Origin: Streptomyces sp. RerS4
Lineage (GTDB): Bacteria; Actinomycetota; Actinomycetes; Streptomycetales; Streptomycetaceae
NCBI RefSeq assembly: GCF_023515955.1
Contig: NZ_CP097322.1
Location: 868,001-932,000, forward strand
Reading direction: 5' to 3'
DNA: 64,000 bases
The notes under the pieces are model-generated. The model had not been told where the DNA came from. It ran no database searches and worked only from the letters and a program-made list of their open reading frames with translations. The stretch's first letter is position 1. Every line of letters begins with the position of its first letter. Made by a program: the position numbers and the translations under genes. Below, one piece after another: positions 14,118-35,980 of the stretch.

Positions 14118-14160
14118 CCCGTGGCCCGCACATCCGATCATCCGGTGTGCGGGCCACGGG
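14118..14160 (+). terminator. Long stem-loop terminator after phosphotransferase gene
   Basis: CCCGTGGCCCGCACA pairs perfectly over 15 bp with TGTGCGGGCCACGGG across a 13-base loop, followed by ACTTTT. This is one of the best intrinsic terminator signals in the window. Confidence 0.9.
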
Positions 14161-14311
14161 ACTTTTCGCGTCTACGGGGCCTCGTACGGGAACGGGCCGG
14201 GAGGCCGGCGCGCGTGCCTTGACATCACATGATCCCCCTAACACCTTTTCAGACTCGGCCTCAGAACCGCTGGCGTCGTCCCCTTCCTCCCCGAACGGCT
14301 GGAGTCCGCCC

Positions 14312-16090
14312 ATGACCGAGAGCCCGGATCGAGCCCGCCCCGCCCTGCCCTCCCGTCGGTCGGTCCTCGCCGGGACGGGGGCCGGGGTGCTCGCCGCCGC
14401 CGTCCTGCCGGCCGGAGCGGCGCGCGCGGCCGAGAGCCCGCTCGGCGAGTACGACGTCGTCGTGGTCGGGTCGGGGGCGGCCGGGATGACCGCCGCGCTG
14501 ACCGCCGCCAAGCGGGGTCTGAGCGTCCTGGTGGTCGAGAAGGCGCCGACCTTCGGTGGTTCGGCCGCCCGCTCGGGTGCCGGTATCTGGCTGCCGAACA
14601 ACTCGGTGATCCTCGGGGCGGGTGTCCCGGACACCCCGGAGAAGGCGGAGCAGTACCTGGCGGCGGTGGTGGGGCCGGAGGTGCCGGCCGACCGGCGGCG
14701 GGCGTTCCTCGCCAACGGGCCGCGGATGCTGGACTTCGTCATGGCGAACAGTCCGCTGCGGTTCCGGTTCATGGACGGGTACAGCGACTACTACCCGAAT
14801 CTGCCGGGCGGGCTGTCGAACGGCCGTTCCATCGAGCCGGACCAGATCGACGGCAACATCCTCGGCGCGGAGCTCGCGCGCCTGAACCCCGCCTACATGC
14901 CGGTGCCGGCCGGGATGGTGGTCTTCAGCCAGGACTACAAGTGGCTGGGCCTCGCGGCGGTGACCGCGAAGGGGCTCGCGGTGTCGACGGAGTGCCTGGC
15001 GCGCGGCGCGGAGGCCGCGCTGCACGGGGAGGAGCCCCTGACGATGGGCCAGGCGCTGGCGGCGGGTTTGCGGGCGGGGCTGCTGCGGGCCGGGGTGCCG
15101 GTGTGGTTGAACAGCCCGTTGGTGGACCTGGTCCAGGAGGCGGGCGCGGTCACCGGGGTCGTGGTGGAGAAGGACGGCGTACGGGGCGTCGTACGGGCCC
15201 GCAAGGGCGTGGTGATCGGTTCGGGTGGCTTCGAGCACAACGCGCGGATGCGGGAGCACTACCAGCAGCAGCCGATCGGCACGCAGTGGTCGGTCGGGGC
15301 GAAGGAGAACACCGGGGACGGGATCCGGGCGGGGCAACGGGCGGGGGCCGCACTGGCGTTGATGGAGGACGCCTGGTGGGGGCCGTCGATCCCGCTGCCC
15401 GGGGAACCGTACTTCTGTCTGGCGGAGCGGACGCTGCCGGGCGGGCTGATCGTGAACGGGGCGGGGACGCGGTTCGTGAACGAGGCGGCGCCGTACGGCG
15501 ACGTGGTGCACGTGATGTATGAGAAGGACCGCCCGGCGCCGGGTTCGCACATCCCGGCCTGGCTGATCGTGGATCAGAACTACCGCAACAAGTACCTGTT
15601 CAAGGACATCCTGCCGACGTTGTCCTTCCCGGACGCGTGGTTCGAGTCGGGGGCGGCGAAGAAGGCCTGGACGTGGGACGCGCTGGCGGGACGGATCGGG
15701 GTCCCGGCGGGCGCCCTGCGGGCCACCCTCAACCGGTTCAACGCACAGGCGTGGAGCGGGGACGACGCCGATTTCCACCGGGGGGACACGGCGTACGACC
15801 ACTACTACACGGACCCGAACGTGCGGCCGAACTCGTGTCTGGCACCGATCTGGGCGCCCCCGTTCTACGCCTTCCGGATCGTCCCCGGCGACCTCGGCAC
15901 CAAGGGCGGCATCGTCACGGACGCACGGGCGCGGGCGCTGCGGGAGGACGGTTCGGTGATCCGGGGGCTGTGGGCGGCGGGCAACGCGAGCGCCGCCGTG
16001 ATGGGCCACAGCTACGCCGGGGCGGGCTCGACGATCGGGCCCGCGATGACGTTCGGCTATGTGGCGGCGAACGACATCGCGGACGCCTAG
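14312..16090 (+). CDS. FAD-dependent oxidoreductase, 3-ketosteroid dehydrogenase (KstD)-like, Tat signal
   Basis: A 592-residue flavoprotein of the succinate dehydrogenase/KstD family. The ATG at 14312 gives a twin-arginine signal (PSRRSVLAGTGAGVLAAAV) at residues 14-32 ending in an Ala-rich cleavage region, so export is likely. The FAD dinucleotide motif VVVGSGAAGMTAALTAAKRG is at residues 50-70. The C-terminal GHSYAGAGSTIGPAMTFG carries the Tyr and Gly positions that in KstD enzymes form the active site for 1,2-dehydrogenation of 3-ketosteroids. An aromatic-rich loop (DGYSDYYPNLPGG) near residue 150 fits the substrate pocket. An exported KstD would be unusual; related FAD enzymes such as 3-ketosteroid 4-ene dehydrogenases or fumarate reductase-like proteins remain possible. 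Confidence 0.85.
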   Translation: MTESPDRARPALPSRRSVLAGTGAGVLAAAVLPAGAARAAESPLGEYDVVVVGSGAAGMTAALTAAKRGLSVLVVEKAPTFGGSAARSGAGIWLPNNSVILGAGVPDTPEKAEQYLAAVVGPEVPADRRRAFLANGPRMLDFVMANSPLRFRFMDGYSDYYPNLPGGLSNGRSIEPDQIDGNILGAELARLNPAYMPVPAGMVVFSQDYKWLGLAAVTAKGLAVSTECLARGAEAALHGEEPLTMGQALAAGLRAGLLRAGVPVWLNSPLVDLVQEAGAVTGVVVEKDGVRGVVRARKGVVIGSGGFEHNARMREHYQQQPIGTQWSVGAKENTGDGIRAGQRAGAALALMEDAWWGPSIPLPGEPYFCLAERTLPGGLIVNGAGTRFVNEAAPYGDVVHVMYEKDRPAPGSHIPAWLIVDQNYRNKYLFKDILPTLSFPDAWFESGAAKKAWTWDALAGRIGVPAGALRATLNRFNAQAWSGDDADFHRGDTAYDHYYTDPNVRPNSCLAPIWAPPFYAFRIVPGDLGTKGGIVTDARARALREDGSVIRGLWAAGNASAAVMGHSYAGAGSTIGPAMTFGYVAANDIADA

Positions 16091-20034: not shown

Positions 20035-21210
20035 TCAGGAGGTCGGCGGCTCGGCCCCGACCAGCCACATCGAGAAGAACTGCGCGCCGCCGCCGTACGC
20101 GTGCCCCATCGCCCGGCGGGCGTTCGGGACCTGGTGTTCCCCGGCCCGGCCGCGTACCTGGAGGGCCGCCTCCGCGAAGCGGATCATGCCGGAGGCGCCG
20201 ATCGGGTTGGTGGACAGGACGCCCCCTGACGGGTTCACGGGCAGGTCGCCGTCGAGTTCGGTGACCCCGGCCTCGGTGAGTTTCCAGCCCTCGCCCTCCT
20301 CGGCGAAGCCGAGGTTCTCCAGCCACATCGGCTCGTACCAGGAGAAGGGGACGTACATCTCGACGGCGTCGATCTCGCGGCGCGGGTCGGTGATACCGGC
20401 CTGCCGGTACACGTCCGCCGCACAGTCCTTGCCCGCCTGCGGGGAGACGAAGTCCTTGCCCGCGAAGAGCGTCGGTTCGCTGCGCATCGCCCCGCCGTGC
20501 AGCCACGCCGGGGCCTTGGGCGCGCGGGCGGCGCCCGCCCGGTCGGTGAGGACCATGGCGCAGGCCCCGTCGGAGGAGGGGCAGGTCTCGGAGTAGCGGA
20601 TCGGGTCCCACAGCATGGGCGAGGCCTGGACCTTCTCCAGGGTGATGTCGTGCTCGTGGAGGTGCGCGTAGGGGTTCTTCAGCGCGTTGCGGCGGTCCTT
20701 GTAGGCGACGAGCGAGCCGACGGTGTCGGGTGCTCCGGTGCGTCGCATGTACGCGCGCACGTGCGGGGCGAAGAACCCGCCGGCGCCCGCCAGCAGCGGC
20801 TGTTGGAAGGGGACGGGCAGGGACAGGCCCCACATGGCGTTGGACTCGGACTGCTTCTCGAAGGCGAGGGTGAGCACGGTGCGGTGGACGCGGGCGGCGA
20901 CGAGACCGGAGGCGACGAGCGCCGTGGACCCGCCGACCGAACCGGCCGTGTGCACGCGCAGCATGGGCTTGCCGACGGCTCCCAGGGCGTCGGCCAGGTA
21001 CAGCTCCGGCATCATCACGCCCTCGAAGAAGTCGGGGGCCTTGCCGATCACGACGGCGTCGATGTCCGCCCAGGTCAGTTCGGCGTCGGCGAGGGCGCGG
21101 ACGGCCGCCTCGCGAACCAGGCCCGCGATCGAGACGTCGTGGCGGGCGGCGACGTGTTTGGTCTGGCCGACGCCGACGACGGCGACGGGCTCCTTGCCCG
21201 AGGTGCTCAT
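20035..21210 (-). CDS. Thiolase-like lipid-transfer protein (Ltp family), second in operon
   Basis: A 391-residue thiolase-fold protein of the SCP2-thiolase/Ltp group, starting MSTSGKEPVAVVGVGQTKHV at 21210 and overlapping the stop of the upstream Ltp gene by ATGA. GGSTALVASGLVAARVHRTVL replaces the thiolase nucleophile Cys segment, and the C-terminal VNPSGGVLSTNPIGASGMIRF and GHAYGGGAQF loops are conserved. Mycobacterial and rhodococcal Ltp proteins with a DUF35 partner cleave sterol side-chain CoA thioesters by retro-aldol reaction rather than Claisen chemistry. Together with the next two genes it forms a coupled OB-fold-Ltp-Ltp set like Rv3521-Ltp4-Ltp3. Substrate inferred only. Confidence 0.87.
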   Translation of the reverse strand: MSTSGKEPVAVVGVGQTKHVAARHDVSIAGLVREAAVRALADAELTWADIDAVVIGKAPDFFEGVMMPELYLADALGAVGKPMLRVHTAGSVGGSTALVASGLVAARVHRTVLTLAFEKQSESNAMWGLSLPVPFQQPLLAGAGGFFAPHVRAYMRRTGAPDTVGSLVAYKDRRNALKNPYAHLHEHDITLEKVQASPMLWDPIRYSETCPSSDGACAMVLTDRAGAARAPKAPAWLHGGAMRSEPTLFAGKDFVSPQAGKDCAADVYRQAGITDPRREIDAVEMYVPFSWYEPMWLENLGFAEEGEGWKLTEAGVTELDGDLPVNPSGGVLSTNPIGASGMIRFAEAALQVRGRAGEHQVPNARRAMGHAYGGGAQFFSMWLVGAEPPTS

Positions 21211-22274
21211 GCTCGGTCCCCTTCCAGGACGGCGACCAGGTTCTGCTGGAGGCAGGGGCCGGAGGTCGCGTGGGCGACGGCCCGGTCGGAGGCGCCCCGG
21301 TGGATGCGGGCGGCGGCCTCGCCGATGCGGATCAGACCGGCGGCCATCATCGGGTTGGCGGCGAGGGCCCCGCCGGACGGGTTGACGGTGACCTCGTCGC
21401 CGAGGCCGAGGGCCTTGCGGAGCACGACCTCCTGGGAGGAGAACGGCGCGTGCAGCTCGGCCGTGTCCACCGGGGCGTCGAAGAACCCGGCCCGCTCGGC
21501 GGCGAGCCGGGTGGAGGGGGAGTCGGTGAGGTCGCGCAGGCCCAGGCCGTGCGCCTCGATGCGGTGGTCGATGCCGGTGATCCAGGCGGGCCGCTCGCAC
21601 AGCCGCCGCGCGCTGTCGCCGGCGGCCAGGATCACCGCCGCCGCGCCGTCGCCGACGGGCGGGCAGTCGCCCGTACGCAGCGGGGCCACCTGGTAGTCGC
21701 CTTGCGCTACGGAGCCCCGCAGTTGGGCGTGCGGGTTGTGCCGGGCGGCGGCCCGGCTGCGGGCTCCCACGGCGGCCAGCGCGGCCTCGTCGGTCTGTCC
21801 GGCGTCGATGAGCGCCCGCGCCTGGAGGGCGGCGAGGGCCACCGAGTCGGGCCACAGGGGGGCGAGGTAGTACGGGTCGAGCTGGCGGGTGAGGACGTCG
21901 CGGACGGAGCCCGGGGAGGACTTCCCGTAGGCGTAGACGAGCGCGGTGTCGGCCTCGCCGGTCTGGATCTTGACCCAGGCCTCGTAGAGCGCCCAGGCGC
22001 CGTCCATCTCGACGTGGGACTCGGAGATCGGCGGCCAGGCGCCGACGCCGTCGAGGGTCATGGTGAAGGAGAAGGCCCGGCCGGCGAGGTAGTCGCTGGA
22101 GCCGGAGCAGGTGAAGCCGATCTCGCCGGCCTTCAGACCGGTGGCGGCCAGGACCTCGTGCAGGACCGGCATGACCATCTCGACTTCGCTGAGTTCGTCG
22201 GTGCGGCGCAGGTGGTCGCTCTGCGCGAACGCGACGACGGCCACGTCGCGGGCGTACCTGCTCGTCGTGGGCAT
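21207..22274 (-). CDS. Thiolase-like lipid-transfer protein (Ltp family), first in operon
   Basis: A 355-residue thiolase-fold protein, start MPTTSRYARDVAVVAFAQSD at 22274. Its ATG shares its first base with the TGA of the OB-fold gene (TGATG), and its own stop overlaps the next Ltp by ATGA, so all three are translationally coupled. Thiolase landmarks: FTCSGSSDYLAGRAFSF near residue 50, GDCPPVGDGAAAVILAAG near residue 200 and VNPSGGALAANPMMAAGLIR near residue 300. It is paralogous to the downstream Ltp. Paired, non-identical Ltps suggest a heteromeric aldolase complex with the OB-fold protein, as known for Ltp2-ChsH2 in cholesterol catabolism. Confidence 0.87.
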   Translation of the reverse strand: MPTTSRYARDVAVVAFAQSDHLRRTDELSEVEMVMPVLHEVLAATGLKAGEIGFTCSGSSDYLAGRAFSFTMTLDGVGAWPPISESHVEMDGAWALYEAWVKIQTGEADTALVYAYGKSSPGSVRDVLTRQLDPYYLAPLWPDSVALAALQARALIDAGQTDEAALAAVGARSRAAARHNPHAQLRGSVAQGDYQVAPLRTGDCPPVGDGAAAVILAAGDSARRLCERPAWITGIDHRIEAHGLGLRDLTDSPSTRLAAERAGFFDAPVDTAELHAPFSSQEVVLRKALGLGDEVTVNPSGGALAANPMMAAGLIRIGEAAARIHRGASDRAVAHATSGPCLQQNLVAVLEGDRA

Positions 22275-23278
22275 CAGATGAGCTCCTTGTACGCGTCGTA
22301 GTCGGCGTCCGGCTCGCCGGTGGGCCGGTAGTGGTCGGGGTGGCGGCCGCCGTCGGTCCAGACCGGTTCGACGCGCAGGCCCATGCGGACCTGGTCGTAC
22401 GGGATGCCGCCGATCCGGCCGTGGAGGGCGAGGTCGGCGCCGTCGAGGGCGATGTGGGCGTAGACGTAGGGGACCTCGATGTCGAGGTTCTTCGCTTTGA
22501 TGTTGACGATGCAGAACGTGGTGACCGTCCCGGCGGGGCCGACCTCGACCTGGTCGGTGGTGGCGACGCCGCAGGTGGGGCAGGCGCCGCGCGGGGGGAC
22601 GTACACCTTGTGGCAGGAGGGACAGCGCTCGCCGACGGTGCGGCGCTCGGCGAGGGCGTTGATGTAGGCGGTCTGGGCCCGGCCGGGGCTGTAGGTGTAG
22701 TCGAGGCGGGCCTCGGCGACGATGCCGGTGACGGGGTCGGCGAAGGTGCCGGAGTGGGGGACGGGGGCCGCTGCGGGGTCGGCGGAGCCGGTCGGGTCGG
22801 TCGGGTCGGTCGGGTCGGTTCGGTCGTCGGCGGGTTCGAAGCAGGCGATGTCGGTGATGGCGCCGACGCGCTCGGCGGCCCAACGGATCCGGACCCGCAT
22901 GCCGGTGGTGACGGCCTCGGGGCCGGGGGCGTCGAGGGCGTGCAGGATCGCGGTGTCGGCGCCGTCGAGCCTGACCAGGACCCAGGCGAAGGGGGTGCCG
23001 AGGGGCTGGTGGGGGCGCGGGGAGCCGTTCCAGGCCCAGGTGGTGACGGTGCCGGTGGGCGCGACCTCGACGAGTTCGCGCAACTCCTCGGCGGTGACGG
23101 GGTCGTACTCGACGGGCGGCACCATCACCGTTCCGGCGGAGGTCGTGACGCCGAGGACGACGCGGTCGCGCAGGCCGCTGAGGAAGGCGCTCTGGACGGG
23201 CCCGAGCGAGCGGGTGAAGGGGAACTCGACGACGAGAGGCGCGCGGAGCACCTCGGGTGGCGACGCGGCTGCGGTCAT
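22274..23278 (-). CDS. Tandem OB-fold (DUF35) protein, Ltp partner
   Basis: A 334-residue protein starting MTAAASPPEVLRAPLVVEF at 23278, with GGAGAG 6-12 bases upstream. It contains two DUF35 units: an N-terminal OB fold (residues 15-155) without Cys ligands, and a C-terminal unit (residues 180-325) with a zinc-ribbon CPSCHKVYVPPRGACPTCG followed by the OB fold. A linker of Asp-Pro-Thr repeats encoded by a 9-bp tandem repeat joins them. DUF35 proteins bind and structure Ltp aldolases; ChsH2 does so through its C-terminal DUF35. A two-unit protein beside two Ltp genes suggests one OB unit for each Ltp. Stop and start with the next gene overlap by one base. Confidence 0.88.
   Translation of the reverse strand: MTAAASPPEVLRAPLVVEFPFTRSLGPVQSAFLSGLRDRVVLGVTTSAGTVMVPPVEYDPVTAEELRELVEVAPTGTVTTWAWNGSPRPHQPLGTPFAWVLVRLDGADTAILHALDAPGPEAVTTGMRVRIRWAAERVGAITDIACFEPADDRTDPTDPTDPTGSADPAAAPVPHSGTFADPVTGIVAEARLDYTYSPGRAQTAYINALAERRTVGERCPSCHKVYVPPRGACPTCGVATTDQVEVGPAGTVTTFCIVNIKAKNLDIEVPYVYAHIALDGADLALHGRIGGIPYDQVRMGLRVEPVWTDGGRHPDHYRPTGEPDADYDAYKELI
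22791..22826. repeat. 9-bp tandem repeat encoding Asp-Pro-Thr linker
   Basis: Three exact copies of GTCGGGTCG (22791-22817) and a fourth degenerate copy, in frame in the OB-fold gene, encode the DPT repeats on the minus strand. Copy-number changes preserve frame, so linker length could vary between strains. Confidence 0.9.
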
Positions 23279-23450
23279 GGACGGCTCTCCGGTGTTCGGT
23301 GGCGGGCGCACTCGTGCCCCGCCGTCGTCGGGGGCGTTCGGGTGGACGGGCCCACGCCGGCCACGCCGGCGTGTCGGCCGGGGGCCTGGTCCGGCCCCGG
23401 GGGTGCGGGGGCCGGGGGCCCGGGTGCGGGAGTCGGGGGCGGGTCGGTGG

Positions 23451-24251
23451 TTACTCGCGTCGGTATACCGCGGGCCGCTTTTCCGCGAAGGCGCGTGCCC
23501 CCTCCTTCGCGTCGGCCGTGTCGAAGATCGGCCAGCCCCGCAGGAGTTCCGAGGCCAGCCCTTCCTTCTCGGTCAGCTCGGCGGTCTCGTAGACGGAGGC
23601 CTTGACGGCCTCGACGGCCAGCGGCCCGCACGCGTTGATCTGCTCGGCGATCTCCAGGGCCGTCTCCAGCGCGGTGCCCTGCGGCACCACCCGGCCGACC
23701 AGCCCGATCCGGGCGGCCTCCTCGGCGGAGTACGGGCGCCCCGTCAGCAGCATCTCCAGTGCGTGCGTCCGGGGGATCTGGCGGGGCAGCCGGACCGTGG
23801 AGCCCCCGATCGGGAACAGGCCCCGCTTGACCTCGAACAGCCCGAACGTGGCCCCGGCCCCCGCGACGCGGATGTCGGTGCCCTGGAGGATCTCCGTCCC
23901 GCCGGCCACGCAGTAGCCCTCCACCGCCGCGATCACCGGCTTGCGCGGGCGGTGGTGGCGGAGCATCGCCTTCCAGTGCAGGTCGGGGTCGTCCTTGAGC
24001 CGGTCCCGGTAGCGCTCGCCCGCCATGCCCTTGCCGGCCAGCGCCTTGAGGTCCATCCCCGCGCAGAAGTCGCCGCCCGCGCCCGTGAGGACCACGGAGC
24101 GGATCGATTCGTCGGCGTCCGCCTCCAGCCAGCCGTCGTAGAGCCCCACCAGCAGGGGAAGCGAGAGCGCGTTCTTCGCCTCCGGCCTGTTCATGGTGAG
24201 CACCAGCGTGGCGCCCCGGCGTTCCACGGTCAGGTGTTCCGTCCCGCCCAT
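23451..24251 (-). CDS. Enoyl-CoA hydratase/crotonase, EchA19-like
   Basis: A 266-residue crotonase. The oxyanion-hole motifs are seen as GAGGDFCAGMDLKALAG (residues 57-73) and VEGYCVAGGTEILQGTDIRV (near residue 110), and the second catalytic acidic position falls in LFEVKRGLFPIGGSTVRLPR. The C-terminal helix ends in AFAEKRPAVYRRE, typical of hydratases acting on bulky acyl-CoAs. It is divergent from a FadD19-like ligase across a 174-bp region with a 17-bp dyad. In M. tuberculosis echA19 and fadD19 are likewise adjacent and divergent and act on the cholesterol side chain; this gene is proposed to hydrate the enoyl-CoA formed from the FadD19 product. Confidence 0.88.
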   Translation of the reverse strand: MGGTEHLTVERRGATLVLTMNRPEAKNALSLPLLVGLYDGWLEADADESIRSVVLTGAGGDFCAGMDLKALAGKGMAGERYRDRLKDDPDLHWKAMLRHHRPRKPVIAAVEGYCVAGGTEILQGTDIRVAGAGATFGLFEVKRGLFPIGGSTVRLPRQIPRTHALEMLLTGRPYSAEEAARIGLVGRVVPQGTALETALEIAEQINACGPLAVEAVKASVYETAELTEKEGLASELLRGWPIFDTADAKEGARAFAEKRPAVYRRE

Positions 24252-24315
24252 TGCCGTCCTCCCGTCTCAAGACCTAGAACAGGTTGCAGGAGGGGAGGGT
24301 GCAGTTCAATAGTTT

Positions 24316-24332
24316 TCTGACACTCAGTCAGA
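24316..24332. promoter_or_regulatory. 17-bp dyad TCTGAC-N5-GTCAGA, operator of echA/fadD19 region
   Basis: TCTGAC, ACTCA, GTCAGA with a flanking GTTT on the left and TTTCTTG on the right. It lies 64 bp before the EchA19-like start and 93 bp before the FadD19-like start, so it can control both. A near copy with the same flanks is at 35981-35997. Size and symmetry fit a TetR-type regulator of lipid catabolism. Confidence 0.65.
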
Positions 24333-24425
24333 TTTCTTGGCGTGCACCCTTCCCACTTGGACCGGGCGGCGCTCTAATGACCGCCGAGCAGCCCAGCCAT
24401 GGGATTTTTCGGGTCAGGAGGAACG

Positions 24426-26060
24426 GTGGAGTACAACCTTGCCGACCTGTTCGAGTCGGTCGTGGACGTGGTCCCGGACCGCGAGGCCCTGGTGTACGTG
24501 GACCACCCCGGGACCGGCGCCGAGCGCCGCCTGACGTACGCGGAGCTGGACACCGCCGCGAACCGCGTCGCGCACCACCTGATGGACAGCGGGCTGCGGC
24601 CGGGCGAGCACGTGGGGCTGCATCTCTACAACGGCATCGAATACCTCCAGACCGTCCTGGCCTGCCTGAAGGCGCGCCTGGTGCCGGTGAACGTCAACTA
24701 CCGGTACGTGGAAGAGGAGCTGGTCTACCTCTACAACGACGCCGACCTCGCCGCGCTCGTCTTCGAGGGCGAGTTCACCGAGCGGGTGGCGGCCGCGCTG
24801 CCGCAGACGACGAAGCTGCGGCACCTGATCCGCGTCGGAACGACTCCGGACGGCGCCCCGGAGCCCGCCGTGGCGCCGGTGGCGTACGCGGACGCGGAGG
24901 CGGCCGGGTCTCCCGAGCGCGGGTTCCCCGAGCGCAGCCCCGACGACCTGTTCATCATCTACACGGGCGGCACGACGGGCATGCCCAAGGGCGTCATGTG
25001 GCGGGCCGAGGACCTGTTCTTCGCGGGGCTCTTCGGCGGCGAGCCGTCGGGCGAGCCGGTGAAGCGGCCGGAGGAACTGGCCGAGCGGGTGGCGGCGCGG
25101 GGCGCGGGCCTGACCTTCTTCCCCGCTCCGCCGCTGATGCACGGCACCTCGACCCTGACCTCGTTCATCGCCTTCAACTACGGCCAGCGCGTGGTCGTCC
25201 ACCGCAAGTACGTGCCGGAGGAGGTGCTGCGCACCATAGAGAAGGAGAAGGTGTCGAGCGTCTCGCTGGTCGGCGACGCGATGCTGCGGCCCCTCATCGA
25301 CGCCCTGAACGGGCCGCTCAAGGGGACGGACCTGTCCTCGCTGTTCAGCGTCTCCTCATCCGGCGCGATCATGTCGGAGACGGTGCGCGCGGAGTTCCAG
25401 CGGCTGGTGCCGAACGTGGTGCTGCTGAACAACTTCGGCTCCTCGGAGTCCGGTTCGAACGGCCGGGCCACGGACGACTCGGGGCCGGAGAAGGGCTTCC
25501 GGCTCCAGGTCAACGACCGTACGCAGGTGGTGGACCCGGTGACGCACGAGCCGGTGGCGGTCGGGCAGCCGGGGCGGCTGGCGCAGCGCGGACACGTACC
25601 GCTCGGCTACTACAACGACCCGGTCAAGACCGCGGAGACGTTCTTCCAGAAGGGGTCCGAGCGGTGGGTGCTGCTGGGCGACATGGCGACGGTCGACGAG
25701 GAGGGCATCGTCACGGTCCTGGGGCGGGGCTCTCAGTGCATCAACACGGGGGGCGAGAAGGTCTACCCGGAGGAGGTCGAGCAGGCGCTGAAGTCGCATC
25801 CGAACGTGTACGACGCCCTGGTCGCGGGGGTGGCGGATCCGACGTGGGGCAGCCATGTCGCGGCGGTGGTCCAGGTCCGGGCAGGGGCGCCGGAGCCCAC
25901 GCTTGAGGAGATCCAGCTGCACTGCCGGACCCGGCTCGCCGGGTACAAGATCCCGCGCCAGCTGGTGATCGCGCCGACGATCCAGCGCTCGCCGAGCGGC
26001 AAGGCGGACTACCGGTGGGCGAAGTCGGTGGCGACGGAGGCCGACGCGGCGGCACGCTGA
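24426..26060 (+). CDS. Acyl-CoA synthetase, FadD19-like
   Basis: A 544-residue AMP-forming ligase. The GTG at 24426 (VEYNLADLFESVVDVVPDRE) is chosen for its AGGAGG at 24416-24421 and because this opening is the usual one; an ATG at 24399 has no ribosome site. The P-loop is YTGGTTGMPKGVMWR (near residue 185), the A5 region LLNNFGSSESGSNG and the A8 hinge LGRGSQCINTGGEKVYPEEVE are intact, and the catalytic Lys lies in SPSGKADYRW at the C-terminus. FadD19 activates the C26 (C24-branched) sterol side chain in rhodococci and mycobacteria. It is divergent from the EchA19-like gene under a shared dyad. Substrate class inferred. Confidence 0.9.
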   Translation: MEYNLADLFESVVDVVPDREALVYVDHPGTGAERRLTYAELDTAANRVAHHLMDSGLRPGEHVGLHLYNGIEYLQTVLACLKARLVPVNVNYRYVEEELVYLYNDADLAALVFEGEFTERVAAALPQTTKLRHLIRVGTTPDGAPEPAVAPVAYADAEAAGSPERGFPERSPDDLFIIYTGGTTGMPKGVMWRAEDLFFAGLFGGEPSGEPVKRPEELAERVAARGAGLTFFPAPPLMHGTSTLTSFIAFNYGQRVVVHRKYVPEEVLRTIEKEKVSSVSLVGDAMLRPLIDALNGPLKGTDLSSLFSVSSSGAIMSETVRAEFQRLVPNVVLLNNFGSSESGSNGRATDDSGPEKGFRLQVNDRTQVVDPVTHEPVAVGQPGRLAQRGHVPLGYYNDPVKTAETFFQKGSERWVLLGDMATVDEEGIVTVLGRGSQCINTGGEKVYPEEVEQALKSHPNVYDALVAGVADPTWGSHVAAVVQVRAGAPEPTLEEIQLHCRTRLAGYKIPRQLVIAPTIQRSPSGKADYRWAKSVATEADAAAR

Positions 26061-26478: not shown

Positions 26479-27336
26479 TCAGACGCCGGCGGCCAGGAAG
26501 CGTTCGACGCGGGCGGCGAACCAGGCCGGGTCGTCCAGCCACGGGAAGTGGCTCGCGCCCGGCTGGACGTCGATCAGCCCGTGCGGGAACAGCTCGGCGA
26601 GGCGGGCGGCGTGCGCGGGCGGGGGATTGCCGTCCAGCTCCCCCGCCAGGACCAGGACCGGGGCTGCCACCCGCCGCAGAGCGGCGCGGGTGGCGGGCGG
26701 GTCGAAGGCGTCGGGGTGGGCGAAGACGGTTGCGGCCTTCTCGTTCTGTTCGTGGGGGTTCGCGGCGTGGTGCGCGCGGGCGGTCTCGTCCCAGCGGCCG
26801 TAGAAGAGCGGGGCGGCCAGGTCCCAGACCTCGTCCGTGTCGACGCCGGCGAGGATCCGCTCGTAGGCCTCGATCGCACGGTCGTAGAGGGCGACGCCCG
26901 CCCGCAGGCGCGCCGCCGTGAGCTTCTGCTCGGCGGAGACGGGCAGGTCCACGGCCCGGGCCGTGGGGGTGATCAGGGCCATCCGGCCGACCCGTTCGGG
27001 GTGCGCGGCGGCGTAGAGCAGGGCGAGGTTGCCGCCGGCCGAGTGGGCGAGGAGGTCCAGGCGTTCGAGGCCGAGGTGGAGGCGGAGGGCCTCGACGTCG
27101 GCGACCTGGTGGTCCACCCGGTACGTCGCCTCGTCCGCCGGGATCGCGGAGTCGCCGGTGCCGCGCAGGTCGAGGCGGACGAGCCGACGTCCGGCGGGCA
27201 GGCCACCGAGGTCACCGAGGTAGGTCGAGGCGCGCATGGCGCCGCCCGGCAGGCAGACCAGTGGGGTTCCCTCGCCGTCCGGGTGGTAGGCGAGTTCGGT
27301 TCCGTCGAAGGTGGTGAAGGCAGGCATGGGCGCCAT
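26479..27336 (-). CDS. Alpha/beta fold hydrolase
   Basis: A 285-residue hydrolase (ATG at 27336, alternative at 27327, MPAFTTFDGTELAYHP). The oxyanion loop is LVCLPGGAMRAST near residue 30, the nucleophile Ser sits in LLAHSAGGNLALLYAAAHPE (near residue 98), the acid is likely Asp in VLVLAGELDGNPPP, and the catalytic His is in QPGASHFPWLDDPAWF near the C-terminus. It has a cap domain between residues 130 and 215. It may be an esterase, epoxide hydrolase or proline iminopeptidase-like enzyme. It is divergent from paaK; a 12-bp dyad lies 15 bp upstream of its start. Confidence 0.88.
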   Translation of the reverse strand: MAPMPAFTTFDGTELAYHPDGEGTPLVCLPGGAMRASTYLGDLGGLPAGRRLVRLDLRGTGDSAIPADEATYRVDHQVADVEALRLHLGLERLDLLAHSAGGNLALLYAAAHPERVGRMALITPTARAVDLPVSAEQKLTAARLRAGVALYDRAIEAYERILAGVDTDEVWDLAAPLFYGRWDETARAHHAANPHEQNEKAATVFAHPDAFDPPATRAALRRVAAPVLVLAGELDGNPPPAHAARLAELFPHGLIDVQPGASHFPWLDDPAWFAARVERFLAAGV

Positions 27337-27350
27337 CCCATCAGATGATC

Positions 27351-27362
27351 ACTCGTTCGAGT
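27351..27362. promoter_or_regulatory. Dyad ACTCGTTCGAGT upstream of alpha/beta hydrolase
   Basis: ACTCG-TT-CGAGT with 5-bp arms, 15 bp from the hydrolase start and inside the 102-bp divergent region. The flanking bases (ATGATC, CATTGAT) add partial symmetry. Probably an operator that overlaps the hydrolase promoter. Confidence 0.45.
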
Positions 27363-27394
27363 CATTGATTTAGCCGGCCGGGTCCGGCAATCTG

Positions 27395-27410
27395 CCGAAT
27401 GAACGTTCGG
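27395..27410. promoter_or_regulatory. Dyad around GAACGTTC upstream of paaK
   Basis: CCGAATGAACGTTCGG: 5-bp arms CCGAA/TTCGG around the palindromic core GAACGTTC, 29 bp before the paaK start. The ACCGAACGTTC word resembles TetR-family (including PaaR-type) operators of actinomycetes. It differs clearly from the dyad at 24316. Confidence 0.5.
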
Positions 27411-27438
27411 TTGGTGGGGTTTCCGGTGAGGTGACGAG

Positions 27439-28761
27439 ATGACGGCATACACGGCGGACGCGGCGGACGCGGATTTCCGGGACGAGGGCGAGCGGCTGAG
27501 CGCCGACGAACTGGCGGCGCTCCAGCTGAAGCGGCTGCGGGACACCCTGTACCGGGTGTACGAGCACGTGCCCTTCTACCGTCGGGCCTTCGAGAAGGCC
27601 GGGGTGCACCCCGACGACTGCCGCTCCCTGGCCGACCTGTCCCTCTTCCCCTTCACCACCAAGGCCGACCTGCGCGAGGAGTACCCCTTCGGGATGTTCG
27701 CGGTCCCCCGCTCCGAGGTGCGCCGCGTGCACGCCTCCAGCGGCACCACCGGCCGGCCCACGGTGGTGGGGTACACCGAGCGGGACCTGTCCACCTGGGC
27801 GGATGTCGTCGCCCGGTCGATCCGCGCGGCGGGCGGCCGCCCCGGACAGATGGTGCACGTCGCCTACGGGTACGGCCTGTTCACCGGCGGGCTCGGCGCG
27901 CACTACGGGGCGGAGCGGCTGGGCTGTACGGTCGTGCCGGCTTCCGGGGGCATGACCGACCGGCAGGTCGCCCTCATCCAGGACTTCCGGCCGGAGGTCA
28001 TCATGGTGACCCCCTCCTACATGCTCACCCTGCTCGACGAGATGGAGCGCCAGGGCATCGACCCGCGCGCGACCTCCCTGCGGACGGGGATATTCGGCGC
28101 GGAGCCGTGGACCGAGGAGATGCGCCGGGAGATCGAGGAGCGGCTCGGGATGGACGCCGTGGACATCTACGGCCTGTCCGAGGTGATGGGACCGGGGGTG
28201 GCGCAGGAGTTCGCCTCCCACAAGGACGGCCTGCACATCTGGGAGGACCACTTCTACCCCGAGGTGATCGATCCGCTGACGGGCGCCGTCCTGCCGGACG
28301 GGGAGCCGGGCGAGCTGGTCTTCACCTCCCTCACCAAGGAGGCCATGCCCGTCGTCCGCTACCGAACCCGGGACCTGACCCGGCTGCTGCCGGGGACGGC
28401 CAGAGCCGCCTTCCGCCGTATGGAGAAGGTGACCGGCCGCACCGACGACATGATCATCCTGCGCGGGGTGAACCTCTACCCGACCCAGATCGAGGAGATC
28501 CTCCTGCGTACCCCGGGCCTCGCCCCGCACTTCCAGCTGCGCCTGACCCGGGAGGGCCGCATGGACGCACTGACCGTACGGGTGGAGGCTCGCCGCGAGG
28601 CCGACGCGGAACGCCGTCGCACGGCGGCCGCCGAGCTCGTCCGGGCGGTGAAGGAATCCGTCGGGGTGTCGGTGGCGGTGGAGGTGGTGGACCCGGAGAC
28701 CCTGGAGCGCTCGCTCGGCAAGATCAAGCGCATCCGCGACCTCCGCACCCCACGCGAGTGA
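27439..28761 (+). CDS. paaK: Phenylacetate-CoA ligase
   Basis: A 440-residue AMP-forming aryl-CoA ligase starting MTAYTADAADADFRDEGERL, with GGTGAGGTG upstream. PaaK hallmarks: HVPFYRRAFEKAGVHPDD near residue 40, P-loop VHASSGTTGRPTVVGYT at residue 95, the aryl site GYGLFTGGLGAHYGAERLG, the DIYGLSEVMGPGVAQE segment and GRTDDMIILRGVNLYPTQIE in the C-terminal hinge. It forms phenylacetyl-CoA from phenylacetate, ATP and CoA. No ring epoxidase (paaABCDE) or other paa gene is in the window, so the product must feed enzymes encoded elsewhere or be an arylacetyl-CoA precursor. It is divergent from the alpha/beta hydrolase. Confidence 0.93.
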   Translation: MTAYTADAADADFRDEGERLSADELAALQLKRLRDTLYRVYEHVPFYRRAFEKAGVHPDDCRSLADLSLFPFTTKADLREEYPFGMFAVPRSEVRRVHASSGTTGRPTVVGYTERDLSTWADVVARSIRAAGGRPGQMVHVAYGYGLFTGGLGAHYGAERLGCTVVPASGGMTDRQVALIQDFRPEVIMVTPSYMLTLLDEMERQGIDPRATSLRTGIFGAEPWTEEMRREIEERLGMDAVDIYGLSEVMGPGVAQEFASHKDGLHIWEDHFYPEVIDPLTGAVLPDGEPGELVFTSLTKEAMPVVRYRTRDLTRLLPGTARAAFRRMEKVTGRTDDMIILRGVNLYPTQIEEILLRTPGLAPHFQLRLTREGRMDALTVRVEARREADAERRRTAAAELVRAVKESVGVSVAVEVVDPETLERSLGKIKRIRDLRTPRE

Positions 28762-28881
28762 GCGTCACCCCCGCCCGCCCCGAGAGGTCCGGGCCGAGCG
28801 GGAACTCCCGAGCCATCCCTTCGGCCCCACTTCGGTGCGGCCTCCGGGACTCCACCGGCCCGTCCGGGTAGTCCATGGGGC

Positions 28882-29703
28882 GTGACCTCGCATCTCCGGC
28901 GGCTCCACGACCGGCTCCTGGGCTCTCCCCTCGGGCTGGCCTGGAGTCGCGGCCGGGAGATCGAGCTCATGCACCGGGCGATGGGCTTCGCCGCCCTCGG
29001 GTTCCTCACCCTGGTGCCGCTCCTGGTGGTGGTGGCGGCGGCCGCTCCCGGCAGTGGTTCCGGCTTCGGCCGCTGGCTGGGTCAGGCCCTCGGGGTGTCG
29101 GAAGCCTCCCGTGCCCGTGTGGAGCTGCTGTTCGGAGCGGCGGACCTGGCACTGGAACGGACCACCGCCTTCGGGTTGGCCGCCCTCGCCGTGTTCGGCC
29201 TGACCTTCGGCTCGGCCGTGCAGACCGGGTACGAGAAGGTGTGGGACCTGCCGACCGCCCGCTGGCACACCATGTGGCGGCACGTGGTGTGGCTGGCCCT
29301 GCTGGTCTGCTACCTGGCGCTGCTCGTCGGCATCCCCGCCCCGTCCGACGACTGGGTCGGCACGGCTCTGGGCACCTCCGGCGACGTGCTCGGCACCTGC
29401 CTGTTCTTCTGGAGCTCGGGCCGGATCCTGTTGGGCGGCCGGGTCCGGTGGCGGGCCATGCTGCCGGGGGCGGTGGCGACCAGCGTCGGCCTGCTCGGGC
29501 TGCGGACCTTCTCGCAGGTGGTGTTCTCCCCGCTGATCGCCTCGAACGCCGTCACGTACGGCCCGTTCGGCACGCTGCTGGTCGTGCAGTCCTGGCTGGT
29601 CGGCGTCGGGTTCGTGGTCTACGGCGGGGCCTTGGTGGGCCGCCTGGTCCACGAACACCTCGTCCAACGCCGGCTGCGACAGGACGGACTCCTGCCGGCT
29701 TGA
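28882..29703 (+). CDS. YihY/BrkB family inner-membrane protein
   Basis: A 273-residue polytopic membrane protein with a GTG start at 28882. It has about six hydrophobic segments: residues 34-58, 90-112, 133-155, 165-185, 195-215 and 230-256. The order and the motif FGLTFGSAVQTGYEKVWDLP correspond to the YihY/virulence factor BrkB family, once misnamed ribonuclease BN. Function in actinomycetes is not established. The preceding 120 bp after paaK show no clear terminator, so co-transcription with paaK is possible. It converges on the ligase gene at 29759. Confidence 0.82.
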   Translation: MTSHLRRLHDRLLGSPLGLAWSRGREIELMHRAMGFAALGFLTLVPLLVVVAAAAPGSGSGFGRWLGQALGVSEASRARVELLFGAADLALERTTAFGLAALAVFGLTFGSAVQTGYEKVWDLPTARWHTMWRHVVWLALLVCYLALLVGIPAPSDDWVGTALGTSGDVLGTCLFFWSSGRILLGGRVRWRAMLPGAVATSVGLLGLRTFSQVVFSPLIASNAVTYGPFGTLLVVQSWLVGVGFVVYGGALVGRLVHEHLVQRRLRQDGLLPA

Positions 29704-29758
29704 CCCCTTCCCCCCTGCCCGCCGCAGCCCCTGCCCCCTCGACCCCGGGTCGCCCCGT

Positions 29759-31261
29759 TCAGCCCGCCGTGAAGCGGGCGCGCAGCTCGCGCTTGAGGAT
29801 CTTGCCGCTGGCGTTGCGCGGCAGGGTGTCCACGAAGAGGACCCGCTTCGGGGCCTTGAAGTGGGCCAGCCGCTCGCGCGCGTACGCCAGCAGCTCCGCC
29901 TCGGTGACCTCCCCGCGCGGCACCACCACCGCCGTGACGGCCTCGATCCACCGCTCGTCCGGCAGTCCGACCACCGCCGCCTCCGCCACCCCCGGGTGCG
30001 CGTACAGCGCGTCCTCGACCTGCCGGGAGGCGACGAGGACCCCGCCCGAGTTGATGACGTCCTTGACCCGGTCGACCACGGTGAAGTACCCGTCGGTGTC
30101 GCGCACCGCGAGGTCCCCGGAGCGGAACCACCCGTCGCGGAAGGCCTTCTCGGTGGCCTCGGCGTCGTTCCAGTAGCCCAGGCACAGTTGCGGGGAGCGG
30201 TAGACGACCTCGCCGGGCGTGCCGTCCGCCACGTCGGCGCCGTCCTCGTCGACGATCCTCGCCTCCACGTGGCGTACGGGCCGGCCGCACGAGTCCATCC
30301 GGCCCTCGTGTTCGTCGGGCCCCAACACCGTGGCCAGGGGGCCGATCTCGCTCTGCCCGAAGCAGTTGTAGAAGCCCAGATCGGGCAGCCGGGCCCGGAG
30401 GCGTTCCAGGACGGGGACGGGCATGATCGAGGCGCCGTAGTACGCCTTGCGCAGGGACCGCAGGTCCCGGTCGGGGAACTGCGCGTGGTTGGCGAGCGCG
30501 ATCCAGACCGTCGGCGGGGCGAAGAGGCTGTCCGCGTCGCCCGACTCGACCAGGTCGAAGATCACCTCGGCGGCCGGCCCGTCGAGGATGGTGTTGCGGG
30601 CGCCGACGGCCAGGTAGGGCAGCAGGAAGACGTGCGTCTGCGCCGAGTGGTAGAGCGGCAGCGAGTGCAGGGGCCGGTCGTCCTCCGCCAGGTCGAGCGC
30701 GTCGATCGCGCTCTCGTACTCGTGCGCGAGCGCCCGGTGCGTCATCATCGCGCCCTTGGGCAGGGCCGTGGTCCCGGACGTGTAGAGCAGTTGCACCAGC
30801 GCGTCGGGGTCGTCCCCCGCCGCCTCGAAGGGCAGGGGCTCGGCCAGGCGCGCGAGGAACGAGTCGGGCGCGTCGCGCAGCGGGCGTGCGGGCCACCCGT
30901 CGGGCACCCGCCCCGCCAGGTCCGGATCGGCCAGCACGAGGGCGCTCGCGCAGTCGCCGAGGATGTGCGCGAGGTCCTCGCCGGTCAGGTTCTGATTGAC
31001 CGGCACGTGGGTGAGGCCGGCGCGGGCGCAGGCCAGGAAGGCGATGAGATAGGCGTCGGAGTTGTGGGCGAAGGTCGCGACCCGCTCGCCGGGCGCGAGC
31101 CCGTATCCGTCGCGCAGGACGGCGGCTCCGGTGGACACGGCCGCGTCGAGTTCCGCGTACGTCCAGCTCCGTTCGCGGTAGCGGACGGCGACGCGCTCGG
31201 GCACCCGCCGCGCGCTGTCCCGTACGAGTCCGTCGACCGTGTTGTCCCGCACTGGCGTCAT
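29759..31261 (-). CDS. Long/medium-chain acyl-CoA synthetase (AMP-binding)
   Basis: A 500-residue AMP-forming ligase starting MTPVRDNTVDGLVRDSARRV at 31261. The P-loop is LLYTSGTTALPKGAMMTHRA (near residue 165), followed by YNCFGQSEIGPLATVLG, the A7 SGDLAVRDTDGYFTVVDRVK and an intact catalytic Lys in LPRNASGKILKRELR. The LDGPAAE and FAPPTVW segments are typical of fatty acid or substituted cyclic acid ligases in lipid clusters. The upstream 74 bp to the ChaA gene stop (31336) contain no TCTGAC dyad, so it may be read through from there or have its own promoter. Substrate unknown. Confidence 0.9.
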   Translation of the reverse strand: MTPVRDNTVDGLVRDSARRVPERVAVRYRERSWTYAELDAAVSTGAAVLRDGYGLAPGERVATFAHNSDAYLIAFLACARAGLTHVPVNQNLTGEDLAHILGDCASALVLADPDLAGRVPDGWPARPLRDAPDSFLARLAEPLPFEAAGDDPDALVQLLYTSGTTALPKGAMMTHRALAHEYESAIDALDLAEDDRPLHSLPLYHSAQTHVFLLPYLAVGARNTILDGPAAEVIFDLVESGDADSLFAPPTVWIALANHAQFPDRDLRSLRKAYYGASIMPVPVLERLRARLPDLGFYNCFGQSEIGPLATVLGPDEHEGRMDSCGRPVRHVEARIVDEDGADVADGTPGEVVYRSPQLCLGYWNDAEATEKAFRDGWFRSGDLAVRDTDGYFTVVDRVKDVINSGGVLVASRQVEDALYAHPGVAEAAVVGLPDERWIEAVTAVVVPRGEVTEAELLAYARERLAHFKAPKRVLFVDTLPRNASGKILKRELRARFTAG

Positions 31262-33235: not shown

Positions 33236-34798
33236 TCACATGGCGCGTTCGCGGCCTTCCCAGTAGGGGTCGCGCAGGCGGCGCTTGTAGAGCTTGCCGT
33301 TCGGGTCGCGGGGCATGGTGGCGATGAAGTCGACCGACTTGGGGCGTTTGTAGCCGGCGAGTTGTCGTTCGCAGTGGTGGAGGATCTCGGCGGCCAGGGC
33401 GTCGCCCGCTTCGAAGCCCTCGGCGGGTTCGATGACGGCCTTGACCTCCTCGCCCCAGGAGTCGTGCGGGATCCCGAAGGCGGCGGCGTCCGCGACGGCC
33501 GGGTGGGTGAGCAGGGCCGATTCGATCTCGGCGGGGTAGATGTTGACGCCGCCCGAGATGATCATGTCGATCTTGCGGTCGCGCAGGAAGAGGTAGCCCT
33601 CCTCGTCGAGCAGGCCGAGGTCGCCGACGGTGAAGAAGTCACCGATGCGGTTCTTGCGCGTCTTGCCCTCGTCCTTGTGGTAGCTGAAGCCGCCGGTGTT
33701 CATCTTGATGTAGACGGTGCCCACTTCGCCGGGGGCCAGCCGCCTGCCGTCGTCGTCGAAGACGGCGAGTTCGCTGATCGGCCAGGCCTTGCCGACGGTG
33801 CCCGGCCGCTTGAGCCATTCCTCGGCGGTGGCGAAGGCGCCGCCGCCCTCGCTGGCCGCGTAGTACTCCTCGACACAGCGGCCCCACCAGTCGATCATGG
33901 CCCGTTTGACGTGGTCCGGGCAGGGGGCGGCGCCGTGGATGGCGTGCCGCATGGAGGAGACGTCGTAGGCGTCCTTCGTGTGCTGCGGGAGGGCGAGCAG
34001 GCGGTGGAACTGGGTGGGGACCATGTGGGTGTGCGTGCAGGAGTGGCGGTCGATCAGGCGCAGCATCTCCTCGGGGGTCCACTTGTCCATGAGGACCAGC
34101 GGGTGGCCGATGTGCAGCGACGCGCCCGCGAACTGGAGTACGGCCGTGTGGTAGAGCGGCGAGCAGACGAGGTGGACGTTGTCGTCGAAGGGCCGGATGC
34201 CGAAGATGGCGAGGAACCCGCCGAGGTACGTCTCCTCCGGGAGGCGGCCGGTCAGGGGGCGGCGGATGCCGCGCGGGCGGCCGGTGGTGCCGGAGGTGTA
34301 GTTCATCACCCAGCCGAGGGTGCGCCCGTCGGGGGGCGTGGTGGGCTGCCCGTCGAGGAGGGCCGCGTACGGGGCGAAGCCCGGGACGGCTCCGACGGCG
34401 TAGCGGCGCTCCCCCGGGAGGCCCGCCTCGTCGGCGGCGGCGGTGGCGGCCTCGGCGAAGCGTTCGTGGGCGATGAGGACCTTGGCGCCGGAGTCGGAGA
34501 CGATCCAGGCGATCTCGGGGCCGACGAGGTGGTGGTTGACGGGGACGAGGTAGAAGCCGGCCTGGGAGGCGGCGAGGTAGGCGGTGAAGAACTCGACGCC
34601 GTTGGGCAGGACGACGGCGAAGGCGTCGCCGCGTTCCAGTCCGGCGGCGCGCAGGCCGTGGACGAGGCGGTTGACGTCGGCGTGCAGGCGACCGGCGGAC
34701 CATGTCTCGCCGTCGGGGGCGACGAGGACGGTGCGGTCGGGGTCGGCGGCCGCCTGGGCCCAGAACCCGTTGGGGCGGGTGTTCTGCTGCTCGCTCAT
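33236..34798 (-). CDS. Acyl-CoA synthetase (FadD4-like)
   Basis: A 520-residue AMP-forming ligase. The start at 34798 (MSEQQNTRPNGFWAQAAAD) overlaps the nitronate monooxygenase stop by ATGA, so the two are translationally coupled. Motifs: P-loop NYTSGTTGRPRGIRRP (near residue 180), CSPLYHTAVLQF, the A5 EEYYAASEGGGAF, and the A8 hinge LRDRKIDMIISGGVNIYPAE; the Lys of the C-terminal lobe is in DPNGKLYKRRLRDPYW. It belongs to a group of acyl-CoA ligases common in actinobacterial lipid and steroid clusters. It sits downstream of the 35981 dyad, so it should be co-regulated with the EchA19/FadD19 pair. Substrate unknown. Confidence 0.9.
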   Translation of the reverse strand: MSEQQNTRPNGFWAQAAADPDRTVLVAPDGETWSAGRLHADVNRLVHGLRAAGLERGDAFAVVLPNGVEFFTAYLAASQAGFYLVPVNHHLVGPEIAWIVSDSGAKVLIAHERFAEAATAAADEAGLPGERRYAVGAVPGFAPYAALLDGQPTTPPDGRTLGWVMNYTSGTTGRPRGIRRPLTGRLPEETYLGGFLAIFGIRPFDDNVHLVCSPLYHTAVLQFAGASLHIGHPLVLMDKWTPEEMLRLIDRHSCTHTHMVPTQFHRLLALPQHTKDAYDVSSMRHAIHGAAPCPDHVKRAMIDWWGRCVEEYYAASEGGGAFATAEEWLKRPGTVGKAWPISELAVFDDDGRRLAPGEVGTVYIKMNTGGFSYHKDEGKTRKNRIGDFFTVGDLGLLDEEGYLFLRDRKIDMIISGGVNIYPAEIESALLTHPAVADAAAFGIPHDSWGEEVKAVIEPAEGFEAGDALAAEILHHCERQLAGYKRPKSVDFIATMPRDPNGKLYKRRLRDPYWEGRERAM

Positions 34799-35937
34799 GT
34801 CGGTCGCGGTCCTCCCTCGGGTCCGCCGGCCGGTGCTCGGCCGGCGATGCGGTTGATGCGGTCGACGGCGCGCTCGAAGCCGGCGGTGAGTTCGTCGAAG
34901 ACGGCCCGGACGGGGCGTTCGGCGTTCATCCGGCCGACGATCTGGCCGACGGGGGTGCCGAGCAGCGGCTGGACCTCGTACTTCTGGATCCGCGAGACGG
35001 CCTCGGCGACGAGCAGGCCCTGCAGTGGCATCGGGAGCGCGCCGGGGCCGGCGGGGTCGTCCCAGGCGTCGGTCCACTCGGTGCGCAGTTGGCGGGCGGG
35101 TTTGCCGGTGAGGGCGCGGGAGCGGACGGTGTCACCGGAGCCGGCGGCGAGGAGTTTGGCGGTGAGGGCGCGGGAGTGGAGGTCGGCCTCGGTGGTGGTG
35201 AGCCAGAGGGAGCCGAGCCAGACGCCCTGGGCGCCGAGGGCGAGGCCGGCGGCGATCTGTTCGCCGCTGCCGATGCCGCCGGCGGCGAGGACGGGCAGGG
35301 GGGCGACGGCTTCGGCGATCTCCGGGACGAGGACCATGGTGGCGATGTCGCCGGTGTGGCCGCCGGCCTCGTAGCCCTGGGCGACGACGATGTCGATGCC
35401 GGCTTCGGCGTGCCGGCGGGCGTGTTTGGCGCTGCCGGCGAGGGCGGCGACGAGGACGCCGTGGGCGTGGGCGCGGGCGATGACGTCGGCGGGCGGGGAA
35501 CCGAGGGCGTTCGCCAGGAGTTTGATGGGGTAGTCGAAGGCGACGTCGAGCTGGTTGCGGGCGACCTGTTCCATCCAGCCGGTGATGCGCCAGCCGGAGG
35601 CCTCGCCCTCGGGCAGTTCGGGTACGTGGTGCTTGGCGAGGGTGTCGCGGACGAAGGCGCGGTGCCCGGCCGGGATCATCGCCTCGATCTCGGCCTCGCC
35701 GATGCCGTCGACGGCCTTCTTGGCGGGCATGACGACGTCGAGCCCGTAGGGCTTGCCGTCGGTGTGCGCCTGCATCCAGTCGAGGTCGCGTTTGAGGTCG
35801 TCGGGAGCGGTGTAGCGGACCGCTCCGAGGACGCCGAACCCTCCCGCGCGGGTGATGGCCGCGGCGACCGCCGGGAAGGGCGTGAAGCCGAAGATGGCGT
35901 GCTCGACTCCCAGTTTCTTGCTCAGCTCCGTCTCCAT
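34795..35937 (-). CDS. Nitronate monooxygenase (FMN, 2-nitropropane dioxygenase type)
   Basis: A 380-residue FMN-dependent TIM-barrel enzyme starting METELSKKLGVEHAIFGFT. The conserved phosphate loops are visible as GYEAGGHTGDIATMVLV (near residue 185) and LAAGGIGSGEQIAAGLALGA (near residue 220), with QGVWLGSLWL after. Enzymes of this group oxidise alkyl nitronates; some relatives in lipid clusters have other, unproven roles (in M. tuberculosis Rv3553 is in the cholesterol regulon). The ATG at 35937 has no clear Shine-Dalgarno. A dyad lies 44 bp upstream, suggesting a short leader. It is coupled to the downstream acyl-CoA synthetase. Confidence 0.9.
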   Translation of the reverse strand: METELSKKLGVEHAIFGFTPFPAVAAAITRAGGFGVLGAVRYTAPDDLKRDLDWMQAHTDGKPYGLDVVMPAKKAVDGIGEAEIEAMIPAGHRAFVRDTLAKHHVPELPEGEASGWRITGWMEQVARNQLDVAFDYPIKLLANALGSPPADVIARAHAHGVLVAALAGSAKHARRHAEAGIDIVVAQGYEAGGHTGDIATMVLVPEIAEAVAPLPVLAAGGIGSGEQIAAGLALGAQGVWLGSLWLTTTEADLHSRALTAKLLAAGSGDTVRSRALTGKPARQLRTEWTDAWDDPAGPGALPMPLQGLLVAEAVSRIQKYEVQPLLGTPVGQIVGRMNAERPVRAVFDELTAGFERAVDRINRIAGRAPAGGPEGGPRPT

Positions 35938-35980
35938 GGGCGTGAGGATGCCGCAGCGCGGCGGGTGAGGGAAGGGGTTT

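Follow-up and report, generated by a model that had tools for sequence, protein, structure and literature searches.

We propose that five contiguous genes at positions 20035-26060 of a 64,000-nucleotide window from Streptomyces sp. RerS4 constitute a module that cleaves the side chain of C24-branched sterols while sparing the rings, a reading to which we assign a probability of roughly 0.8. The window is the whole stretch of DNA that was analyzed and corresponds to positions 868001-932000 of contig C1 in the complete, 7.5-Mb genome (G000); in what follows, coordinates in the millions refer to the contig and smaller ones to the window. Judging from the genes present, C24-branched sterols are probably trimmed to androst(adi)enedione.

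With respect to gene content, all five families lie at one locus, with the fadD19-like and echA19-like genes divergent. Specifically, an Ltp3-like thiolase-fold protein (20035-21210, minus strand), the predicted retro-aldolase subunit, aligns with Ltp2 and scores 715 bits with PRK08313 (cut-off 514), and an Ltp4-like thiolase-fold protein (21207-22274, minus strand), predicted to be a non-catalytic or supporting partner, scores 572 bits with PRK07937 (cut-off 419). The third gene (22274-23278, minus strand) encodes an OB-fold partner protein of the DUF35/ChsH2-C-like type, which carries PF01796 and PF12172, matches 6ok1_B (ChsH2, DUF35) and contains two OB stretches; a ChsH2-type zinc ribbon of four cysteines (CPSC...CPTC) and an OB fold are found in its C-terminal half. 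The set is completed by an EchA19-like enoyl-coenzyme A (CoA) hydratase (23451-24251, minus strand; 408 bits with PRK07799, cut-off 316) and a FadD19-like steroid acyl-CoA ligase (24399-26060, plus strand; 733 bits with PRK07798, cut-off 543). No second close FadD19-like copy was found genome-wide, the next best protein being 32% identical. In other named carriers, S. xanthophaeus and S. avidinii, the FadD19-like protein is 92-93% identical.

A first-pass annotation, made from the letters of the window alone, had described the OB-fold and two Ltp genes as translationally coupled and the hydratase and ligase genes as divergent. The opposite strands of the latter pair bear this out, and the coupling is likewise correct, since stop and start codons overlap by one base at the OB/Ltp4 junction (TGATG) and by four bases at the Ltp4/Ltp3 junction (ATGA). 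The true Ltp3 and Ltp4 proteins have 391 and 355 amino acids, lengths that differ from those of the listed open reading frames (606 and 558 amino acids) because the latter begin a long way upstream of the real starts. Of 80 named loci, 68 keep the five-gene order, most of the remainder being truncated at a contig end or belonging to another genus, and the ratios of nonsynonymous to synonymous substitution rates (dN/dS) of the five genes, measured against a relative, are 0.07-0.34, which denotes purifying selection. Given this conservation of order and this selection, the arrangement is not due to chance.

The promoter region between the EchA19-like and FadD19-like genes contains a KstR-type operator, TAGAACAGGTTGCA (TnnAACnnGTTnnA), at 24275-24288. 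This is the one match in the window, where 0.09 would be expected, and 72 of 73 intergenic regions contain the box with at most one mismatch, as compared to 2.4% of shuffles. The operator TnnAACnnGTTnnA was defined in mycobacteria, for which the listed KstR sites include those of Rv3515c/Rv3516 (fadD19/echA19), Rv3503c/Rv3504, Rv3545c/Rv3546 and kstR itself, the M. tuberculosis Rv3515c/Rv3516 box being listed as KstR-bound in published assays (PMC1995591). Moreover, we found a KstR-type box at the same place in the mycobacterial loci that we compared. In the genome as a whole there are 22 boxes versus 6 with a reversed control. Boxes precede a KstR-like TetR gene (C1:2360313-2360951), a fadE26-like gene, an hsd4B-like MaoC gene and a FadE-FadE-Ltp operon, with two one-mismatch sites between fadA5 and cyp125, and this arrangement recurs in other Streptomyces within the limits of the stretches compared. 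The KstR-like regulator is 39% identical to mycobacterial KstR, and the KstR family is its sole family match. We set its dN/dS value aside as the product of a frame slip, its identity in a separate comparison being 97%. Three further boxes were not counted as sterol sites: those at 4436120 and 4436164 in the sdh region resemble another kind of site, the symmetrical TTGAACnnGTTCAA, and that at 5564609 in the methylmalonyl-CoA mutase region overlaps coding sequence.

Searching the genome with six mycobacterial side-chain proteins revealed that the pathway is scattered rather than confined to the 20035-26060 locus. Genes for Ltp2 (67-68% identity), ChsH1, ChsH2 and a FadE28-like protein lie together at C1:3782133-3786912, and CYP125 (59%) is encoded divergently from FadA5 (61%) at C1:2371487-2374196, the latter passing the steroid 3-ketoacyl-CoA thiolase equivalog. 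FadE26-like (51%), hsd4B-like MaoC (52%) and hsd4A-like SDR genes are also present, as are genes for an Rv3520c-like F420 enzyme (50%) and a FadD3-like ligase (50%). Given this scatter, we dropped chromosomal linkage as a functional argument and used operators and co-occurrence instead. Among 296 Streptomyces genomes, Ltp4 was found in 208 and CYP125 in 209, with both in 207, neither in 86 and only three genomes discordant (phi coefficient 0.98; p = 2e-71, a value not to be taken literally because the genomes are related to one another). Two of these three come from assemblies with a completeness of 78% and 85%, and in the genome studied here the two genes are ~1.48 Mb apart. We regard this co-occurrence as the strongest argument for a sterol substrate because CYP125 hydroxylates steroids at C26/C27, and the S. 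peucetius member, CYP125A13, hydroxylates cholesterol in vitro (PMC9728343). The first-pass annotation had left the choice between trimming of plant or fungal sterols and another, polyketide-like acid; the KstR box, the co-occurrence with CYP125, and the genes for FadA5 and ChsH1-ChsH2-Ltp2 favor the sterol side.

These genes suggest the following route. Starting from a phyto- or fungal sterol, CYP125 would make the C26 acid, which the FadD19-like ligase would activate as its CoA thioester. The FadE26-like acyl-CoA dehydrogenase would then desaturate this thioester and the EchA19-like enzyme would hydrate it, giving a tertiary beta-hydroxyacyl-CoA that, because of the C24 branch, could not be oxidized to a ketone. 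Retro-aldol carbon-carbon cleavage by an OB/Ltp4/Ltp3 complex would release propionyl-CoA, and FadA5 together with ChsH1-ChsH2-Ltp2 would shorten the remaining chain to the 17-ketone. In terms of catalysis, Ltp3 proteins retain, as YVPF, the Tyr that serves as base in the Ltp2 motif YDHF, and they lack Tyr344, the motif His and a thiolase Cys at the usual place; of the two catalytic tyrosines of TcLtp2, Tyr294 and Tyr344 (PMC12329534), they thus have the first only. The Tyr position is not conserved in Ltp4 proteins in the same alignment. From this we infer that catalysis in the putative aldolase complex falls to Ltp3, with Ltp4 as a supporting chain. The KstR-like repressor would govern the gene set through the TnnAACnnGTTnnA boxes, and the predicted end product is androstadienedione (ADD) where KstD is present and androstenedione (AD) in Streptomyces that lack it, the sterol rings staying unopened for want of KshA and the Hsa enzymes.

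The genome-wide search for kshA and hsaC homologues that the first-pass annotation had proposed gave no match to the KshA (KshA_C, PF19298) or HsaC models, and nothing near the cut-off for HsaD. The same models performed as anticipated in positive controls, with KshA_C found in 25 of 43 test genomes and a congeneric HsaC scoring 327 bits. By this search the genome has neither KshA nor HsaC, the pair whose presence has been used to define complete 9,10-seco steroid catabolism (PMC4810484), although it does have the C/D-ring (KstR2-type) genes. In a relative (G352), hsaB, hsaC, hsaD, hsaA, an IclR-type gene, kshB, kshA and hsaG/F/E occupy ~12 kb (C12:221395-233461), whereas the collinear spot here is ~140 bp long (C1:2001636-2001773) and has no A/B-ring block; a 90-bp, terminator-containing remnant of that block, 94% identical, lies between the flanks. 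Whether the 12-kb block was lost or gained is left open, as either history needs two events. A C/D-ring cluster is retained at C1:2004522-2018550, syntenic with that of G352 at ~90%, with EchA20, IpdA/B, IpdC, FadA6, KstR2 and FadE32/33-like members, and three of its genes that were examined are under purifying selection. The earlier statement that ring-cleavage genes are absent can thus be refined: the C/D-ring cluster is present elsewhere in the genome, and it is the A/B-ring-opening block that is missing. With strong KshA set at over 260 bits, it was found in 28 of the 296 Streptomyces genomes, 26 of which have Ltp4; 182 of the 208 Ltp4 carriers are without it. Weaker Rieske matches in ~50 further Streptomyces genomes were not counted as KshA.

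Several observations weigh against side-chain cleavage with the rings spared. The hydratase is named EchA19-like only because it does not reach the cut-off of the strict EchA19 equivalog NF051848 (364 bits versus 400), a model with which a mycobacterial EchA19 control scored 431 bits; the regulator is called KstR-like for a similar reason, its score with the KstR equivalog NF033703 being 196 bits versus a cut-off of 280; and the FadD19-like ligase is just 44-45% identical to mycobacterial FadD19. It is also odd that a C/D-ring cluster should be retained under selection if the rings are never opened, and a divergent 9-alpha-hydroxylase could escape PF19298. The C/D-ring genes may use methylhexahydroindanedione propionate (HIP) from other degraders, or they may hint at an unseen ring-opening route; streptomycete growth on HIP is cited in PMC5380842. 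We nonetheless consider it unlikely that sterols are degraded completely by ring-opening enzymes too divergent for the models used. The C/D-ring cluster with its selected genes and the FadD3-like ligase are in keeping with such degradation, but the empty KshA_C and HsaC searches and the lack of any HsaD above its cut-off, alongside positive controls, speak against it, as does the absence of the relative's entire hsa/ksh block from the collinear locus.

It is quite improbable, in our judgment, that the substrate of the module is a beta-branched isoprenoid acid of non-steroid kind (phytol, rubber oligomers or hopanoid side chains, or else a polyketide acid) and that the likeness of the module to sterol genes is ancestral only. 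Retro-aldol cleavage of a tertiary beta-hydroxyacyl-CoA would fit any beta-branched acyl-CoA, the A/B-ring enzymes were not found in the genome, and the modest identity of the ligase to its mycobacterial counterpart points the same way. Such a substrate is hard to square, however, with the near-perfect co-occurrence with a steroid hydroxylase that has a tested Streptomyces member, with a FadA5 that satisfies a steroid thiolase equivalog and adjoins CYP125, and with the KstR box common to the module and the other side-chain promoters. Very improbable indeed is a third explanation, that the side-chain genes are a decaying, non-working remnant left after loss of the ring genes, as the missing A/B block at one collinear locus might imply: all of the module genes are intact, as are those for CYP125, FadA5 and KstD, with dN/dS of 0.06-0.34; 208 of 296 species have the module, most of them without KshA; and the operators are conserved. 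Cleavage of the side chain with the rings spared remains the reading that we prefer.

The co-occurrence counts suggest that ~70% of the genus carries sterol side-chain machinery. In a survey that made both KshA and HsaC a requirement, 55 of 57 Streptomyces genomes were classed as lacking steroid catabolism (PMC4810484). We put forward, tentatively and at somewhat less than even odds, that most Streptomyces are side-chain-only sterol users that, under KstR-like control, take the side-chain carbon and release the intact C19 nucleus (AD/ADD) to the soil, and that they have been missed by surveys based on ring genes. We found no description of a side-chain-only Streptomyces pathway in the literature searched, which left out most subscription journals. 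Work on mycobacteria and rhodococci has already established the enzymes, the module and the KstR box; what appears to have gone unrecognized is the setting of the module, decoupled from ring opening and spread over a genus. Were the proposal to hold, a genus dominant in soil would be trimming the sterols of plants and fungi and might be exporting steroid cores that have hormone-like activity, and wild-type hosts outside the mycobacteria would carry the genotype that industry engineers for AD/ADD.

The KstD-like enzyme noted in the first pass at a distance of 4 kb is a true 3-ketosteroid delta1-dehydrogenase, encoded 3.9 kb from the module (14147-16090, plus strand, with the conserved part beginning near 14447). 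It scores 897 bits with the 3-oxosteroid 1-dehydrogenase equivalog PRK07843 (cut-off 788) and, in alignment to 4c3x, keeps the catalytic Tyr/Tyr/Tyr/Gly set, which we take to be Tyr119, Tyr318, Tyr487 and Gly491 (KstD1 numbering). The slot is variable: other Streptomyces have there either an amidase gene or one resembling a two-domain geosmin synthase, and KstD is found there only in the source clade. This rules out KstD as a constant module partner; it is a clade accessory. NsdB is encoded nearby, and all of the nearest named loci come from Streptomyces, both in keeping with that genus.

A second conserved element in the same promoter region is the palindrome TCTGAC-N5-GTCAGA (24316-24332), whose exact form is present in 59 of 73 loci. 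If up to two mismatches are allowed, copies also precede the Ltp2 operon (3782103), the genes for CYP125, MaoC and the F420 enzyme, and the FadE-FadE-Ltp operon; sites with zero or one mismatch, which mark many acyl-CoA and sterol side-chain promoters, are at C1:2351569, 2372911, 3782103, 2345059, 2354588, 4130870, 4142411 and 1355653. Sterol loci contain nine sites in 135 kb versus 1.8 in shuffles, and other loci seven in 237 kb, several of them beside further Ltp-like, FadE or FadD genes. The palindrome may be where a broader acyl-CoA regulator binds. A nitronate-monooxygenase-like gene and an acyl-CoA synthetase gene (FadD4/PRK12406-like) at 33236-36087 have a one-mismatch copy at their promoter (35981-35997) and may belong to the same regulon. 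Elsewhere, C1:2349401-2351542 encodes a 713-amino acid fusion of two acyl-CoA dehydrogenases, adjoining an SCP2-thiolase-like gene and a KstR-type box. Downstream of the ligase, genes for an alpha/beta hydrolase, PaaK (phenylacetate-CoA ligase) and a PRK08316 acyl-CoA ligase (26479-31261) are conserved module neighbors in several Streptomyces, and no sterol link was seen for any of the three.

Turning to known systems, the parallel that the first-pass annotation drew with the M. tuberculosis fadD19-echA19 and Rv3521-ltp4-ltp3 region is real, the same five families being common to this Streptomyces and to M. tuberculosis, and to Rhodococcus and M. smegmatis (ltp3/ltp4/fadD19). Identity to the proteins of mycobacterial loci is 42-70% (Ltp3, 68-70%; Ltp4, 55-57%; OB, 42-47%; EchA19, 52-53%; FadD19, 44-45%). 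A need for the module in growth on or conversion of C24-branched sterols has been shown for the mycobacterial and rhodococcal relatives only. Divergence of echA19 and fadD19, with a KstR box in the promoter, is seen on both sides. The mycobacterial order is ltp3-ltp4-OB, F420 enzyme, Rv3519-like, CYP142, echA19 and fadD19 (Rv3515c-Rv3523), whereas the five Streptomyces genes are contiguous and have no CYP142, Rv3519-like, Rv3520c-like or kshA gene at the locus, the Rv3520c-like gene being ~1.5 Mb away. The OB protein keeps its Cys4 zinc ribbon here, but the mycobacterial counterpart examined (L052:10597-11664) has lost the cysteines. Ltp4 was found in 45 of 396 genomes sampled across the phylum, and in the mycobacteria-like family every tested carrier has a strong KshA, several ~5 kb from ltp4; the Streptomyces module, in contrast, sits in a genome without A/B-ring-opening genes.

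The pairing of a thiolase-fold aldolase with a DUF35/OB partner also recalls the steroid side-chain aldolases ChsH1-ChsH2-Ltp2 and Shy-Sal, and the YVPF of Ltp3 keeps the base Tyr of the Ltp2-type motif. Unlike those systems, Ltp3 is without Tyr344 and the motif His, so that the acid residue must be another; the module has two Ltp chains instead of one and an OB partner without a MaoC domain, and a separate true Ltp2 is encoded elsewhere in the genome. A further counterpart is found in industry, where kshA-deleted mycobacteria convert phytosterols to AD/ADD. The two presumably share a side-chain pathway with KstD and without KshA, and with it the same predicted product; here, however, the genotype is natural, its side-chain-only form is common in the genus, and accumulation of the product is predicted.

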